Shown here in pieces: positions 769 to 55,667 of a stretch of 64,000 bases of DNA. The notes under the pieces were generated by a model. That model was not told the DNA's origin and did not search any database. It saw nothing but the letters and a program-made list of their open reading frames with translations. How positions within the stretch are numbered: position 1 is the stretch's first letter; each line of letters opens with the position of its first letter. Source of the stretch: Pseudomonas vanderleydeniana (GTDB lineage Bacteria > Pseudomonadota > Gammaproteobacteria > Pseudomonadales > Pseudomonadaceae); the NCBI RefSeq assembly GCF_014268755.2, contig NZ_CP077093.1:6570501-6634500 (forward strand), written 5' to 3'. A program made the position numbers and the translations under genes.

Positions 769-941
769 TGTAGGAGCCGGCTTGCTGGCGATCCACCGAA
801 GGCGGCCATCCGATACATCAATGGCGTCCGTGCGGCCGCTATCGCCAGCAAGCGGAGCGCCGCTCGGCCGGCTCCCACATTGACCGCGCCTGGCTCGGAA
901 GGCCGCGAACCCTGTAGGAGCGTGGCTTGCCCGCCAATAGC
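769..941. repeat. REP-type inverted repeat pair plus an extra half unit
   Basis: The 321-base gap between rpe and the agtD-like gene is mostly repeat. The left arm at 771-792 (TAGGAGCCGGCTTGCTGGCG...) is mirrored at 841-878 (ATCGCCAGCAAGC ... CGGCTCCCAC), with a 14-base GC-rich insertion inside the right arm. A partial third unit lies at about 912-941 and abuts the stop codon of the permease gene. The core GGCTTGCTGGCGAT recurs at 29581-29660, so it is a dispersed chromosomal family. Such Pseudomonas REP pairs commonly sit in 3' regions; here it may separate rpe expression from the transporter. I see no coding frame worth reporting in the gap. Confidence 0.8.
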
Positions 942-946
942 CGCCT

Positions 947-1771
947 TCAGGCCTGGGTGGTGCGCAGTTTCTCGCTGCGCCCACGCAGCCATTCCAGGGT
1001 CAGCAGCAGGATCACCGAGAAGGCGATCAGCAAGGTCGCGGCAGCGGCGATGGTCGGGCTGAGGTTTTCACGGATGCCGCTGAACATCTGCCGTGGCAAT
1101 GTTGCCTGCTCCGGGCCGGCGAGGAACAGCGTCACCACCACTTCATCGAACGAGGTGGCGAAAGCGAACAGCGCCCCGGAAATCACCCCCGGTGCAATCA
1201 GCGGCAGGGTCACCCGGCGGAACGTCGTCAGTGGCGAAGCTCCCAGGCTGGCGGCGGCGCGCACCAGATTGTGGTTGAAACCCTGCAAGGTCGCCGAGAC
1301 GGTGATGATCACGAAGGGGACGCCAAGCACGGCATGCACCACGATCAGCGACGAGAAGCTGTTGCCCAGCCCCAGCGGCGCGAAGAACAGGTAGCTGGCC
1401 ACGCCGATGATCACCACCGGCACCACCATCGGTGAAATCACCAAGGCCATCACCAGCGGCTTGCCGGGGAAGTTGCCGCGGGTCAGGCCGATGGCCGCCA
1501 GGGTACCGAACACCATCGCCAGCGCCGTTGCCGCCGGGGCAACGATGATGCTGTTCTTCAGGGCCCGCATCCACTCGGCGGAGGCGAAGAAGTCCTGGTA
1601 CCAGTGCAGCGAGAAGCCTTGCAGCGGATAGACCAGGAAGCTGCCGGCATTGAACGACAGCGGCACGATCACCAGTACCGGCAGGACCAGGAACAACAGG
1701 ATCAACCCGCACAGGATGCGCAAGCTGTAGAACCAGACCCGCTCGACGGGCGACATGTACGGACTGAGCAT
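947..1771 (-). CDS. agtD: ABC transporter permease, PotC/AgtD-like
   Basis: Inner-membrane permease of 274 residues for a polyamine/GABA/5-aminovalerate-type ABC importer. About six hydrophobic segments are visible, and the EAA loop that docks the ATPase reads VRAAASLGASPLTTFRRVTLP. It ends the operon; the gap to the preceding permease is 13 bases, so the two are co-transcribed and probably translationally close. The length is usual for the PotC family. The symbol rests on remembered synteny with P. aeruginosa PA0603-PA0607, where agtABCD lies upstream of rpe; the substrate itself cannot be read from this subunit. Putrescine/spermidine transport is the alternative. Confidence 0.85.
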   Translation of the reverse strand: MLSPYMSPVERVWFYSLRILCGLILLFLVLPVLVIVPLSFNAGSFLVYPLQGFSLHWYQDFFASAEWMRALKNSIIVAPAATALAMVFGTLAAIGLTRGNFPGKPLVMALVISPMVVPVVIIGVASYLFFAPLGLGNSFSSLIVVHAVLGVPFVIITVSATLQGFNHNLVRAAASLGASPLTTFRRVTLPLIAPGVISGALFAFATSFDEVVVTLFLAGPEQATLPRQMFSGIRENLSPTIAAAATLLIAFSVILLLTLEWLRGRSEKLRTTQA

Positions 1772-10709: not shown

Positions 10710-12406
<1,697 letters not shown>

Positions 12407-12419
12407 TACAAGGGTCTCC

Positions 12420-12456
12420 GACGGCGCTAGCCGTCAAGCGGGTCATGCTTTATTAT
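12420..12456. promoter_or_regulatory. remnant amgK/lptD divergent promoter region
   Basis: A dyad GACGGC-GCTA-GCCGTC (12420-12435) and an AT-rich TATTAT (12451-12456; GATAAT on the other strand at 12457-12452) lie between amgK and the intron. TATTAT could be the -10 of lptD and its complement that of amgK. No convincing -35 is visible, so the call is tentative. The intron enters 10 bases to the right of this hexamer. Confidence 0.4.
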
Positions 12457-13529
12457 CCAGCATCTTGTGCGACACGTGCGACGTGTCTCCCTTACTTCGA
12501 GGTGTAGAGCCATCTTGAAGGACTTCGCAAGAAGTCGATTGCTCGGGAGCCTAATCCCTTGAACCAAAGCCACTTTAGAAGTCTATTGCCTTCAAGGACT
12601 TACCGCAGCGGCGGAATGGCAACCCCTAGGTCGGAAAGCGCTTTGCAACACGACCAAAGACCGGCATACCGGCTCTTAAGCGCATGCTGATCCTCAGTCC
12701 TTCATGGACTCAACCCACGCGGGAGATAATCCCCGCTGGGGTTATCTCCTGTAATAGCAACAGGAGGTAACAAATCAAAGAGCAGGCTGTATACGCCAGT
12801 CCCTGACTCATCTTCAACCGGAGACACGAGCGAAAGTTCTGTCTGTCATTGTCCAACCGCTCTGAATGAACGGTAGCGGACTCGTTGTGCGACCAACGAT
12901 AGCCTAGGAAGACATGCGTCACTGGTAACGGTGGGGTGTGAAGCTCTTCCAACAATGTAGCCCCTTAGGGCATGTTCTTGCCGCGAGGCAAAACATGGAT
13001 GCTCGGAGCAGCACCGGGTTGAGGCGCTAGGCTGGCTGGCATGGGCAACATAGGTGAACTGCTGATAAACGCCGTAAGGATAGACGTGCCTAAGCTGCTG
13101 TCAGGCATTAACCAAAAGGTATGAGGCTAGTTATTCCTGTGGGATGTAGGAATACGTCGCTACAACGCCTCCGGTGAAAAGGCAGGCCCTAAACCAGTCG
13201 TGTGACAGGCAGGGAACGTGGTAAGCCCGTATAGCTGCCCTAGGGCAGGTGAACCGCAAGGGGATCTGTTGGCTGTGCGGGTATGGGATCGTAGAAAAAG
13301 CGAACGCCGGGCTGTAATGGTTCGGATAGGGGTTGAAACATCACCCCACGGGAAACCGGGCAAACTTCTGCGTGGTCTTTCGTCGCATGAACACTGAGTG
13401 AGTCTGTCTCAACGAAACTGAAGATTCAGAAAATCTGAATCTCTTCAACAACCTTACCCTGACGGGGACGTCCCTCCCCTCAGGGAGTAGGAACGTCTTT
13501 CGACCAGGGGTACCTGAGAGGAAGGCAGC

Positions 13530-15224
13530 ATGTTGGAACATAGCCAAACGGCAATGTCTGCGCCTTCTGGCGCTCCGCACGAGTGGCACGACATCGACTG
13601 GTGGCGTACTCAACGGAACGTTCGGACGATGCAGATACGGATTGCGAAGGCTTGTCGGGAAGGCAACTGGCGCAAGGTGAAAGCCCTGCAACGGATGCTG
13701 ACCCGCTCATACTCAGCCAGATACCTGGCTGTTAGGAGAGTCACTGAGAATCAGGGCAAGCGCACGGCGGGAGTCGACCGCGTGCTCTGGGATACACCCG
13801 AAGCTAAATGGAATGCGGCTATAGGGTTGAAACGCCATGGATACAAGCCCCAGCCGTTACGGAGGGTCTTTATTCCTAAGTCGAACGGAAAGGAACGCCC
13901 ACTGGGCATTCCAACCATGAGGGACAGGGCGATGCAGGCTTTACACCTACTGGCCTTGGCCCCCATTGCAGAGACCACCGGCGATCCTAATAGCTACGGC
14001 TTTAGGATCGAACGTTCCACGGCGGACGCAATGGGACAGTTGTTCGTCTGTCTGTCCAAGCGGCTATCAGCTCGCTGGGTACTAGAAGCGGACATACAAG
14101 GCTGTTTCGACCACATCAACCATGAGTGGCTGATCACCAATGTACCTACGGACAAGGTGATCCTGCGCAAATGGCTGAAAGCCGGAGTGGTCCATAAAGG
14201 TCAGCTTCAGGCAACTGATGCTGGCACACCACAAGGCGGGATTATCTCGCCGACCTTGGCAAACATGGCGCTGGATGGACTGGAGACACAGCTCAAGCAA
14301 CACCTGGGCGTGACGAGAGCCAAGAAGCTGAAGGTCAATGTAGTGCGATATGCAGATGACTTCGTCATCACCGGTGACTCGAAAGAGATACTGGAGGAAG
14401 TCAGATCTTGGGTAGAGCAGTTCCTGGCAGTCCGAGGGCTACAGCTATCACCCGAGAAAACGCGTATTACCCACATAGATGATGGCTTCGACTTCCTGGG
14501 ATGGAATTTCCGGCAATACAGCGGAAAGCTGCTGATCACACCAAGCAAGAAGAACGCAAAGGCGTTCTACAGCAAGGTGAAGGAGGTCATCAGCGCCAAC
14601 AAAGCGGCGACACAGGAGGATCTGATCCGCCAGTTGAACCCGATACTGCGAGGCTGGGCGTTTTACCATCAGCCCGTGGTAGCCAAGAAGGCGTACAGCC
14701 GCATGGACTACCAGATATTCCAGGCGCTATGGCGATGGGCAAAACGGCGCCACCCAAACAAAGGTCTGGAGTGGATCCGGAGGAAATACTTCCAGCCTAC
14801 CGAGGACCGAAACTGGGTGTTCCGTACCACATTGCTCAACGAGGCAGGAGGCAAAGAGGAGATCAGGCTATACACCCTTGAGGCTACGCCGATCGAGAGG
14901 CACAGGAAAATCAGCGGGGACTACAACCCGTTCGACCCTGCGATGGAGGAGATGGGCGAGAAGCTGCGAATGTCCCGAATGCTCGGGAAGATGAAATATC
15001 GCAAGCAGGTAGCACGTCTGTTCCAATCGCAAAAAGGGCTGTGTTCTCTGTGCAAGAACCCCATAACTAGGGAGACGGGGTGGCATGATCACCACATCAT
15101 CTATCGCTCACAAGGCGGTGGTGACTCTCTAAACAACCGGGTACTATTGCATCCCATTTGCCACCTGCAGCTTCACGCACGTGGTTTAACAGTGAACAAA
15201 CCGACTCCCACTTCGGGGGTTTAG
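13530..15224 (+). CDS. group II intron reverse transcriptase/maturase with HNH endonuclease
   Basis: 564 residues encoded in intron domain IV. The N-terminal part has RT blocks including KSNGKERPLGIPTMRDR, EADIQGCFDHINHEWL and GTPQGGIISPTLANMAL. The catalytic YADD is at residues 274-277. The maturase X domain follows at about 365-430 (LNPILRGWAFYHQ). A C-terminal HNH endonuclease at about 505-550 has the CxxC pair, an HH-I motif and a final C-x2-H. All motifs are intact, so it should promote splicing and target-primed reverse transcription. The start ATG at 13530 is preceded by GAGAGGAAGG. Base composition is clearly less GC-rich than the neighbours, a sign of transfer. Confidence 0.93.
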   Translation: MLEHSQTAMSAPSGAPHEWHDIDWWRTQRNVRTMQIRIAKACREGNWRKVKALQRMLTRSYSARYLAVRRVTENQGKRTAGVDRVLWDTPEAKWNAAIGLKRHGYKPQPLRRVFIPKSNGKERPLGIPTMRDRAMQALHLLALAPIAETTGDPNSYGFRIERSTADAMGQLFVCLSKRLSARWVLEADIQGCFDHINHEWLITNVPTDKVILRKWLKAGVVHKGQLQATDAGTPQGGIISPTLANMALDGLETQLKQHLGVTRAKKLKVNVVRYADDFVITGDSKEILEEVRSWVEQFLAVRGLQLSPEKTRITHIDDGFDFLGWNFRQYSGKLLITPSKKNAKAFYSKVKEVISANKAATQEDLIRQLNPILRGWAFYHQPVVAKKAYSRMDYQIFQALWRWAKRRHPNKGLEWIRRKYFQPTEDRNWVFRTTLLNEAGGKEEIRLYTLEATPIERHRKISGDYNPFDPAMEEMGEKLRMSRMLGKMKYRKQVARLFQSQKGLCSLCKNPITRETGWHDHHIIYRSQGGGDSLNNRVLLHPICHLQLHARGLTVNKPTPTSGV

Positions 15225-15233
15225 TAAAGACTT

Positions 15234-15308
15234 GAGCCGTATGCGCTGAAAGGCGCACGTACGGTTTTTAGGGGGGGACAGACCAGAAATGGTCTGTTCC
15301 TACCCAAC
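15234..15308 (+). other. group II intron domains V and VI
   Basis: Catalytic domain V (15234-15270) has the AGC triad strand, a GC-rich upper helix and the complementary ACGTACGGTT strand. Domain VI (15271-15308) is a stem of GGGACAGACC-type bases with the branch-point A bulged at 15302, six bases before the proposed 3' splice site. Domain V starts 9 bases after the RT stop codon. Confidence 0.85.
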
Positions 15309-15378
15309 TTTCAGACCATCGATAGGCGTGCGGCCCTTACCGCGGGCAGATGGCACGCAGGAAGCCCGGACTAATAAG

Positions 15379-18219
15379 ATGGCATTGAAATCCCCCGCGT
15401 TTCGTAGAAAGTTTCCGTTGCTGGTCACCGGCAGTTTGCTGGCCCTGCAACCTCTGGCCACTTCGTTCGTCGTTGCTGCTGAACAGTATGACTGTTCGGC
15501 CTCGGCTTCGGGCGCCTGGAATTGTGCGCCGAAAGCGACCACAGCCCAGTTGCCACCACGCCCCGTGCACGACGCCGGCTCGGTTGGTGGCCCCTCCCAG
15601 GCCACGGCGGACAGCGGCTCCGGCAGCGACAGCGCCGCGGCGCCCAAGCTGGTCACCGAAGCCAAGGGCCGTGGTCTGAAATCCCGCAGCGCCGATTACA
15701 GCCACCTCGACTGGGTTCCCCGCGAGAAGCTGACGCCTGCCCAATTGGCCGAGACCGGTCCTTACTGCTCTGGTGCCTATATCGAACCGATTCGTCCTGG
15801 CATGAATGACAAGACGAATAAAAGTGATGAACCGACCTTCATCGGTGCCAAGGCTTCGCGCTACGAGCAGGATCAGCAGCTCGCCAGCCTGGCCGGTGAC
15901 GTGGTCATGCGCCAGGGCAGCATGCAGGTCGAGGCCGACGAGGCGAACCTGTACCAGGCGGAGAACCGTGGCGAACTGAACGGCAATGTCCGCGTTCGCG
16001 ACAACGGCGCACTGCTGGTCGGCGACCACGCCGATGTCCAGCTGGACACTGGCGAAGCCAAGGTCGACAACGCCGAGTACGTCCTGCACAAGTCGCGCAT
16101 TCGCGGTAGCGCGCTCTACGCCAAGCGCGCCGAGAACGCGATCATCCGCCTCAAGGACGGTACGTACACCACCTGCGAACCGAACAGCAACGCCTGGCAG
16201 CTCAAGGGTAACAACATCACCCTGAACCCGGCGACCGGCTTCGGTACCGCGACCAACGTGACACTGCGGGTCAAGGACATTCCGGTCCTGTACACGCCGT
16301 ACATCTACTTCCCGATCGACAACCGGCGCCAGTCCGGTTTCCTGCCGCCAAGCTTCAGTTCGGGTGGCGACAACGGCTTCACGCTGGTCACGCCGTACTA
16401 CTTCAACCTGGCACCGAACTACGACGCCACGTTGTACCCACGCTACATGACCAAGCGTGGCCTGCTGATGGAAGGCGAATTCCGCTACCTGACCAAGTCC
16501 AGCGAAGGCCAGTTCGGCGGCGCCTACCTGAACGACGACAGCAATGATCGTTCGAAGCAGACCGACTCCGAGAAAACCCGCTACATGCTCAACTGGCAGC
16601 ACAAGGGTGGCCTGGACTCGCGCGTCCTGACCGAGGTCGACTACACCAAGATCAGCGACCCGTACTACTTCCAGGACCTGACCAGCGACCAGATCGGCGT
16701 CAAGGACAGCAGCAGCTACGTCAACCAACAAGCGGCCGTCAGCTATCGTGGCGACAGCTACACGGCAAAACTGAACGTACAGGCGTACGAGTTGGCCAGC
16801 GTGTCGAACATCACGCCTTACAACAAGTTGCCGCAGATCACCTTCAACGGCACGCTGCCCTACCACCCCGAAGGTCTCGACTTCACCTACGAGACCGAAG
16901 CGGTGCGTTTCGAGCGCAGTCTGCAAACCGGTAACTACTTCGACAAGGATGGTGGACCGTTCGATGCCAACGGGAACGCTGTTGGTACTCCGCGCCTGGA
17001 CACCAACGTCACCGGCCTGGCACGTGCCAACGGTGATCGCCTGAACCTCAAGCCAGGCGTCAGCCTGCCGCTAGACTGGACCTACGGTTTCCTGAAACCG
17101 TCGCTCAAGTACCAGTACACCAAGTATGACTTGGACCTGGGCAGCACGGGCAAAGCCGATATTGTGAATGCACAGTTTGCTGCAGCCGCCAACGGCACGA
17201 ACTACGTGGGTGGAACCTACAACAGCTCGCAAAGCCGTGGCGTACCGATCGCCAGCATCGACAGCGGCCTGTACTTCGACCGCAACACCAGCATGTTCGG
17301 CACCAACTATCGCCAGACCTTGGAACCGCGCCTGTTCTATCTCTATGTTCCAGAGAAGAATCAGGAGGACATTCCAGTCTTTGATACAGGCGAATACAGC
17401 TTCAACTACGCCTCGCTGTTCCGCGAGAACCGTTTCTCCGGTTCGGACCGTGTCGGCGACGAAAACAAGCTGTCCCTCGGCTTGACCAGTCGCTGGATCG
17501 AAGACAACGGCTTCGAACGCCAGCGCATCAGCGTCGGCCAGGCCATGTACTTCAAGGACCGTACCGTCCAGTTGCCTGGTGTCGACTATCGCACCCGTGC
17601 CGACGCCAAGGCCAACGTCTCGCCATATGCACTGGAATACGCCTACCGGTTCAACCATGACTGGCGCGCGACAGCCGACTACAACTGGGACCCGGACAGC
17701 CACAGCCCACGTTCGGGTAGTGCGATGTTCCACTACCAGCCTGAAGACAACCCGAACAAGGTCGTCAACGCCGGCTATCGCTATCGCAACGATCAGGTCA
17801 TCTACAACCAGAATACCGGTCAATGGCAGTTCGGCGGCGACTATGGCACTCCGGGCACCCCTGGCTACGTGAAGGACTACTACAAGATCCAGCAGCACGA
17901 CTTCTCGGTCATCTGGCCGATCGTGCCGCAGTGGAACGTCATCAGCCGCTGGCAGTACGACTACAACCGCAACCGCACGCTGGAAGCCTTTGGTGGTTTC
18001 GAGTACGACAACTGCTGCTGGAAACTGCGCCTGATCAACCGTTACTGGGTCAAGTATGACGAATTCAGTCAAGACGCCCCGCAAAACGAGAAAGGCGACC
18101 GCGGCATCTTCCTCCAAATTGTCCTGAAAGGTCTGGGCGGCGTTCTCGGCCAGAAAGTAGAAACCTTCCTCGACAAAGGCATCCAAGGTTATCGTGAACG
18201 TGAAGATCAAGCTTTCTGA
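15379..18219 (+). CDS. lptD: LPS-assembly protein LptD
   Basis: 946-residue outer-membrane beta-barrel that, with LptE, inserts lipopolysaccharide into the outer leaflet; essential in most Gram-negatives. The signal peptide ([34 protein letters not shown]) precedes an N-terminal OstA/jellyroll domain (about 170-300) and a C-terminal barrel rich in alternating aromatic strands. Cysteines near the mature N-terminus (YDC, WNC) and the adjacent pair in [10 protein letters not shown] fit the interdomain disulfides. I chose the ATG at 15379; the frame is open back to 15289 only through the intron end. Normal expression should require either splicing or promoter activity from within the intron. It overlaps surA. 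Confidence 0.93.
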
Positions 18220-40898: not shown

Positions 40899-40975
40899 GG
40901 GCCTATAGCTCAGTCGGTTAGAGCAGAGGACTCATAATCCTTTGGTCCACGGTTCGAGTCCGTGTGGGCCCACCA
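40899..40975 (+). tRNA. tRNA with CAU anticodon, probably tRNA-Ile2
   Basis: 77-nt cloverleaf: acceptor GGGCCTA/TGGGCCC with one G-U pair, D-arm GCTC..GAGC, anticodon loop CTCATAA (anticodon CAT), variable TGGTC, T-arm CACGG-TTCGAGT-CCGTG and encoded CCA. A G1-C72 pair rules out the initiator. The sequence around the anticodon and variable loop (GACTCATAATC ... TTTGGTC) resembles E. coli ileX more than elongator Met, so the C34 is probably modified to lysidine by TilS to read AUA. Elongator tRNA-Met is the alternative. Confidence 0.9.
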
Positions 40976-55494: not shown

Positions 55495-55518
55495 AAAACC
55501 CCGCCGAAGCGGGGCTTT
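55495..55518 (+). terminator. terminator after the LysR gene
   Basis: AAAACCCCGC-CGAA-GCGGGGCTTT, 24 bases after the LysR stop codon. The A/T flanks make it useful on both strands. Confidence 0.85.
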
Positions 55519-55667
55519 GCAGACTGTTTCCCTGACATCCATTTCGCTCCACCATCCTGGCGGAATCCTACGTGTCCGTGTTTTGCTTTGAGCTTCCTGC
55601 TCGACGTCCTTCATGTGTAGATTACTGCTGGATCCAATAGGGCGATATGGGCAAACAGCAGCGCGTT

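Follow-up and report, generated by a model that had tools for sequence, protein, structure and literature searches.

How does transcription reach lptD in Pseudomonas vanderleydeniana, where a group II intron stands in the leader of the gene, and why does the intron stand at exactly this place? LptD is essential, so transcription must reach the gene by some route; its expression may depend on splicing, on readthrough or on a promoter inside the intron. The window, i.e. the whole stretch of DNA that was analyzed, comprises 64,000 nt of contig NZ_CP077093.1, and all positions given here refer to it. The features of the locus are listed in Table 1.

Table 1. Features of the lptD locus in the window, with strand and basis of assignment.
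Feature	Position	Strand	Basis or remark
amgK, divergent neighbor	11381–12406	−	60 bp of upstream region left
−10 hexamer of lptD, TATTAT	12451–12456	+	T12451 and A12452 (exon −16, −15) unpaired by the intron, other four bases paired
IBS2 (12454–12458, exon −13 to −9) and extra paired base 12453 (exon −14)	12453–12458	+	
IBS1, CATCTT	12461–12466	+	Exon −6 to −1; co-variation with intron positions 675–680; inferred transcription start lies inside
Group II intron, complete	12467–15308	+	Rfam matches, 5′ end shared with relatives, empty sites
5′ region preceding the domain 1 core match; terminal hairpin 12471–12487	12467–12880	+	Strongly structured
Domain 1 core (Rfam group-II-D1D4-7)	12881–13026	+	Rfam
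EBS2 (13078–13082) and extra exon-pairing base 13076	13076–13082	+	Co-variation
EBS1	13141–13146	+	Co-variation
EBS3 candidate, pairs with exon +1	13179	+	Co-variation
Intron-encoded protein (IEP): reverse transcriptase, maturase, HNH	13530–15224	+	564 aa
Domains 5 and 6	15232–15308	+	Rfam
Rest of lptD leader (3′ exon)	15309–15378	+	Sequence, empty sites
lptD	15379–18219	+	Followed by surA at 18194

The intron and its place at lptD

The intron measures 2842 nt, begins with GTGCG and ends with CTACCCAAC. The 5′ GUGYG motif, the domain 1 core, and domains 5 and 6 are all present. The Rfam D1–D4 model matches the core with 119 bits (E 1.4e-24), and the D5–D6 model matches over its full length with 63 bits. 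The region ahead of the core has a fold z-score of −5.26 and probably includes a large 5′ extension. The reading frame of the IEP is open and contains the RVT_N, RVT_1, GIIM and HNH domains; its best match in the PDB is 6me0 (E 3.1e-186), which we take to be the T. elongatus IIB intron. An earlier reading of the DNA from its letters (the sequence-only reading) had described the intron as intact, and the two Rfam matches and the open 564-aa frame bear this out. A second GTGCGAC at 12476 was considered as an alternative 5′ end and rejected; the end was placed at 12467 because relatives start at the same base and most of them have the adjoining GACACG/CGTGTC hairpin. The three pairings of the IIB subclass (EBS1–IBS1, EBS2–IBS2 and EBS3–IBS3) were recovered by co-variation. 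Assignment to class C, whose members insert at terminators, was rejected, as the HNH domain and the EBS2–IBS2 pairing are both present. A scan around the intron returned five terminator-like sites, all on the minus strand.

The intron is co-directional with lptD and ends 70 nt before its ATG, and the gap between TATTAT and the insertion is exactly 10 nt, in agreement with the sequence-only reading. From its distance to the −10 box, the transcription start of lptD is expected at about 12462–12463. The intron would then begin a few nucleotides past the likely start, in line with the sequence-only reading, by which it may start almost there. That the intron cuts the amgK/lptD control region in two also holds: the 130-bp region is split. 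A strict sigma70 scan of 12300–15450 found no plus-strand site; the same scan missed the native lptD −10 and so does not decide on an internal promoter. In the open-licence literature, no paper on the transcription start sites of PA0595 was found.

The sequence between the two genes has some further features. On the other strand, TATTAT reads GATAAT over nearly the same bases (12451–12457). We conjecture that amgK and lptD may share one symmetric −10 element, in which case the intron would replace the region upstream of the −10 of amgK. A short way upstream of the −10 box, at 12420–12435, the sequence GACGGCGCTAGCCGTC forms a perfect palindrome of 16 nt; the empty sites of relatives largely preserve it, and it is perhaps a regulator site. 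Elsewhere in the window, Rfam models matched over their full length to the small RNA RsmY (55495–55611, minus strand) and to a tRNA gene (40899–40972).

The joined flanks of the intron were searched in 57 genomes, of which 36 (the own genome included) gave matches; 30 loci were returned, one being the window's own. At all 29 loci of relatives examined, the joined flanks correspond to an uninterrupted site, and there is no target duplication. The empty site that the sequence-only reading would expect in relatives is thus found, and the −10 box it pointed out is conserved where there is no intron (TATTAT in 28 of the 29 sites, TATCAT in one).

The 7.03-Mb genome itself holds a single match to the intron. 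A set of 398 Pseudomonas genomes, sampled evenly out of a larger group, was also searched with the intron DNA, and 62 gave some match. In at least eight of the 398, the lptD site is occupied by a member of this intron family (G000, G070, G279, G124, G082, G060, G272 and G331); G272 is counted from two contigs, both broken within the intron, and G331 by way of copy L033. P. fuscovaginae IRRI 6609 (L031) has a copy that is 97.9% identical and stands at the same lptD site. Between this strain and the window, synonymous divergence (dS) is 0.058 for the IEP and 0.333 for lptD (894 codons). As the value for the IEP is far lower, the intron must have reached the site after the two had parted, in at least one of them. 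The IEP has a dN/dS of 0.10–0.17 and is thus under purifying selection; together with the contrast in dS, this indicates an intron that has been kept working and arrived recently.

In the IEP tree, the lptD-site introns do not form one group. The window's intron (L001), L002, L003 and L031 cluster together; L011, L012 and L032 cluster apart, L033 stands alone, and L008 groups with introns from tig sites. The 3′ side of L008 is tig sequence. In one Pseudomonas draft genome, an lptD-site intron is followed by tig sequence (L161, G124:C27, 1425–5278), and the lptD contig of the same genome starts inside an intron (L164, G124:C4, 1–1190). This arrangement is the product of either recombination between two introns or misassembly.

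Insertion sites of the lineage

Insertion sites were gathered by intron similarity alone, using a DNA search of the genus and a protein search (best 80 of 455 relatives). The 110 loci with an IEP match gave 100 usable 5′ ends, and these fall into 41 distinct target families, each of which was counted once. The 100 sites take in the window's own and at least one contig twice (L011, L032). Eight loci had no 5′ end by pattern and were dropped (L023, L025, L026, L027, L030, L042, L081 and L105), and two were excluded because the 5′ end fitted poorly (L093, L103); among these, L025, L030, L093 and L103 are without TAnnnT 10 or 11 nt before the candidate end.

In 33 of the 41 target families, a TAnnnT hexamer is separated from the intron by 10 nt; in five, the distance is 11 nt. 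At any other spacing from 0 to 44, it occurs in zero to two families. Counted per site, the numbers are 83 and 12 of 100, respectively. As a background, TAnnnT is found at 267 of 115,148 positions (0.23%) when the host flanks of these loci are counted. Chance placement was rejected, as the fixed spacing across the family far exceeds this background. Three families lie outside the rule: L070 (GAACGT, after a stop codon), L100 (TAATAA) and L107 (AATAAT). The sequence-only reading had called a group II intron in such a position uncommon. This is not supported for the lineage studied here: the hexamer lies 10 or 11 nt upstream at 95 of the 100 sites, and the lptD site alone is occupied in no fewer than the eight Pseudomonas genomes named above.

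For contrast, we used 17 distant introns with a 5′ end, picked by eye where several candidates existed, with IEPs 38–57% identical in the best segment (an additional one, L156, gave no 5′ end). Fifteen of them are without TAnnnT at 7–14 nt, and two (L145, L159) have it at 9 nt. The hexamer of L159 (G729; IEP about 38% identical) is TATAAT, and this intron is perhaps a second promoter-inserting lineage. Three distant relatives (L144, L146, L157) lie inside what reads, by eye, like a tRNA-Gly gene.

No −35 element was enriched upstream of 40 hexamers (mean best match 2.75/6 compared to 2.68 when shuffled), and a −35 element was therefore rejected as a component of the target. The identity of the sites as promoters thus rests on the −10 hexamer, its conservation and the gene context. 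The downstream gene was taken as the longest ORF starting within 450 nt, and 30 of the 40 ORFs found were scanned. Since ORFs were sought on the strand of the intron only, co-direction of these genes is by construction. A family could be assigned to 27 of the 30, and most are housekeeping genes: tig, coaBC, mrcA, glnS, fimV, ispB, secA, an aminotransferase, psd, rpiA, prfB, uvrC, hpnD, ribF, an MFS transporter, fmdB-like, ppsA, rnt, pyrG, acuI, hisZ, ybaK, guaB, amgK, serS, acetolactate synthase and the lptD of Duganella. Seven of the assignments (mrcA, ispB, aminotransferase, MFS transporter, ybaK, amgK and lptD) score below the curated cut-off, in some cases because the locus is cut short. 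At L096, the start of a tRNA-Tyr gene lies 2 nt past the intron. The empty sites of other targets also keep the hexamer, with TAGAAT at 25 of 25 tig loci; for mrcA, 22 of 25 loci were matched and 12 aligned across the junction, 11 of them with TATAAT. The promoter reading was kept on four grounds: the hexamer is fixed, it is conserved without the intron, the genes support the reading by what they are and how far away they lie, and one site adjoins a tRNA gene. Among the dropped loci, the intron of L027 ends 4 nt before a tRNA-Met gene (893–969, minus strand).

One genome, Burkholderia sp. OK233, has six introns at six different targets. When introns at the same site in different hosts are paired, the introns resemble each other more closely than the downstream flanks do in 116 of 145 pairs (9 of the 41 families; the pairs are not independent). 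L018 and L019, for example, have identical introns and downstream flanks of 89.6% identity; in family L016, none of the three pairs has the intron more alike than the flank.

The IEP tree (quick method, midpoint root) places 96 promoter-type rows, three stop-codon rows and L145 in a clade with a support of 100. L145 and L159 are long branches, and the placement of L145 is unsure. The IEP frame is open in 99 of 99 rows, which were chosen for near-full-length matches. The distance to the domain 1 motif could be matched in only 58 of the 100 introns, and the distance from the 5′ end to the IEP start was used as the measure of the 5′ extension instead. It is 871–1363 nt in the 100 sites and 534–844 nt in 16 of the 17 outgroup introns. 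The stop-codon rows (L070, L082, L086) are one target family, inserted right after a stop codon with GAACGT in the place of the hexamer. By eye, the gene before the intron of L070 ends NRRTELNVQN and then stop, so that the stop codon belongs to a gene other than groEL. L025 and L030 branch just outside the promoter-type clade, with a 5′ exon that reads like the end of groEL and distances to the IEP of 1017 and 1033 nt; the insertion lies, by eye, inside the stop codon after groEL-like GGM repeats.

A monophyletic subset of introns with a large insertion at the 5′ extremity is mentioned in the accessible part of PMC4465626, citing Michel et al. 2007. The Azotobacter groEL intron and the lineages that Michel, Costa, Doucet and Ferat (2007) call "specialized" may be related to the introns here, whose 5′ region is long and which have a groEL-like site (L025, L030) nearby in the tree. 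The target of the Azotobacter intron is a stop codon, whereas that of the lineage here is a promoter. Michel et al. 2007 may already describe part of this lineage.

Pairing between exon and intron

Weighted co-variation over the 41 target families assigned intron positions 675–680 to exon −1 to −6 (EBS1) and 612–616 to exon −9 to −13 (EBS2). For EBS3, intron position 713 pairs with exon +1 at an observed frequency of 0.80 against an expected 0.47 (z 4.2), with some 3′ ends off by a few bases. Intron base 610 forms a Watson–Crick pair with the third base of the hexamer in all 41 families (25 T–A, 9 C–G, 5 A–T and 2 G–C), while the best of 20,000 shuffles reached 28. EBS2 is fully paired in 38 families, and all six bases of EBS1 are paired in 35. 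Full pairing of both is absent in nine of the 41 families, and it occurs in one of 1640 non-cognate combinations. Compensation is also seen within the lptD site, where the host of L003 has A for C at −9 and its EBS2 has T for G. The intron L022 has the variant T in EBS2 against the ordinary exon C, which is a mismatch. Beyond EBS1, EBS2 and base 610, no further exon-pairing stretch was found in the intron 5′ region (next best z 2.7). No conserved 3′-exon base such as T+5 of EcI5 was seen in 40 rows, about ten of which have a 3′ end that is off by a few bases.

When the hexamer is read in the register locked to EBS2, T1 is present in 39, A2 in 41 and T6 in 40 of the 41 families, and bases 3–5 show compensated variation. 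The near-invariant T1 and A2 take no part in pairing with the intron. Sites with the 11-nt spacing shift the register of EBS2 by one; EBS2 is therefore anchored to the hexamer instead of the insertion point. The intron RNA can pair EBS1 with exon −1 to −6, and EBS2 plus the extra base with bases 3–6 of the −10 hexamer and the two bases that follow it; these intron bases co-vary with the promoter of the host.

The accessible parts of PMC2882425 and PMC3706431 describe the IIB1 introns TeI4h and EcI5, which likewise pair through EBS1, EBS2 and EBS3 and have A-15 read by the IEP; in selection experiments, the TeI4h IEP favors A-15 and C-16 (PMC2882425), which are the positions of A2 and T1 here. 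The lineage here differs from them in having T-16, A-15 and T-11 nearly fixed over 41 targets, and in its longer 5′ region. The T. elongatus introns are found in intergenic sites, within a tRNA gene and an IS element, inside other introns and in a small number of genes, with no −10 rule in the available text (PMC2882425).

Reading of the promoter and its meaning

We consider it likely, judging from the sequences compared, that the intron at lptD is a mobile IIB-type group II intron whose lineage homes to sigma70 −10 elements of housekeeping genes. The −10 rule across 41 target families makes lptD one target of a promoter-homing lineage and not an odd accident, and it suggests an intron family specialized for promoters. 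A fuller scheme, which we hold with as much doubt as belief, is that a clade in Pseudomonas, Burkholderiales and relatives uses the promoter core as a fixed target code. The IEP would read T-12 and A-11 of the −10 element (promoter numbering), the co-varying EBS2 and the extra pair would read its remaining bases, and the intron would land at about +4, take over housekeeping promoters and splice from a 5′ exon of a few nucleotides without IBS2.

Insertion by a promoter-homing lineage would proceed in steps. The IEP would read the T-A of the hexamer, comparable to the TeI4h IEP at C-16 and A-15, and help to melt the DNA. The RNA would then reverse-splice into the coding strand, immediately past the start site. 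The host promoter would stay whole and transcribe the intron with a 5′ exon of about 4–5 nt. Splicing would restore the native leader, so that lptD and the genes behind it stay expressed, and the intron would gain a housekeeping promoter. As IBS2 and part of IBS1 lie upstream of the inferred start, splicing would have to use a truncated IBS1 and no IBS2, or RNA begun further upstream.

Three other explanations were weighed. It is possible, though we are inclined to doubt it, that the RNP only reads sequence, recognizing TA....T at the fixed distance anywhere, and that insertions outside promoters were lost or never transcribed. The stop-codon sites (L070, L082, L086), which keep A2 and T6 outside a promoter, are consistent with this, as is the reading of A-15 by the TeI4h and EcI5 IEPs in the accessible parts of PMC2882425 and PMC3706431. 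However, only one of the 41 families is clearly without a −10-like hexamer, and loss elsewhere would account for sites lying near promoters but would not, on its own, account for the fixed spacing of 10–11 nt. We regard it as unlikely that the RNP invades open complexes, inserting into the non-template strand where RNA polymerase exposes it. In the promoter, IBS2 and the greater part of IBS1 would lie at about −9 to +4, in the transcription bubble, and the spacing of the hexamer is flexible by one base. RNA polymerase would be expected to occlude the bubble, however, and the stop-codon branch inserts without a promoter-like hexamer. It is quite improbable that lptD is driven from within the intron or the 3′ leader, with splicing irrelevant for the host: the 70-nt leader or the late intron could carry a start site, but the exon–intron pairing and the IEP frame are kept, and the strict scan, a weak argument in view of the native promoter it missed, is empty on the plus strand.

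The promoter-homing reading has parallels in other elements. Class C introns and attC introns similarly target a general expression or recombination signal and hence have many sites; they differ in being of another ribozyme class, in having no endonuclease domain and in recognizing hairpins. The Ty3 retrotransposon inserts at the start sites of tRNA genes. It is likewise a retroelement that inserts within a few nucleotides of transcription starts, but its machinery is unrelated and is guided by transcription-factor proteins. In the open-licence literature, as far as its text is available and with most subscription papers outside it, no report of promoter insertion as a rule for group II introns was found.

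The accessible part of a 2015 review gives three specificities of bacterial introns (homing sites, terminators and attC) and places most bacterial group II introns outside housekeeping genes (PMC4424553). A clade at the starts of lptD, secA, tig, pyrG, serS, prfB and others would break both statements. If the promoter code is true, it would add to the target specificities of bacterial introns, and the lineage would provide a natural, retargetable RNP that reads promoters. By inserting a few nucleotides past the start, the element leaves the promoter whole and may thereby gain steady transcription. It also poses the puzzle of how an intron splices when most of its 5′-exon recognition sequence would be untranscribed. 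The lineage offers 41 natural examples of retargeting, an extra exon–intron base pair among them.
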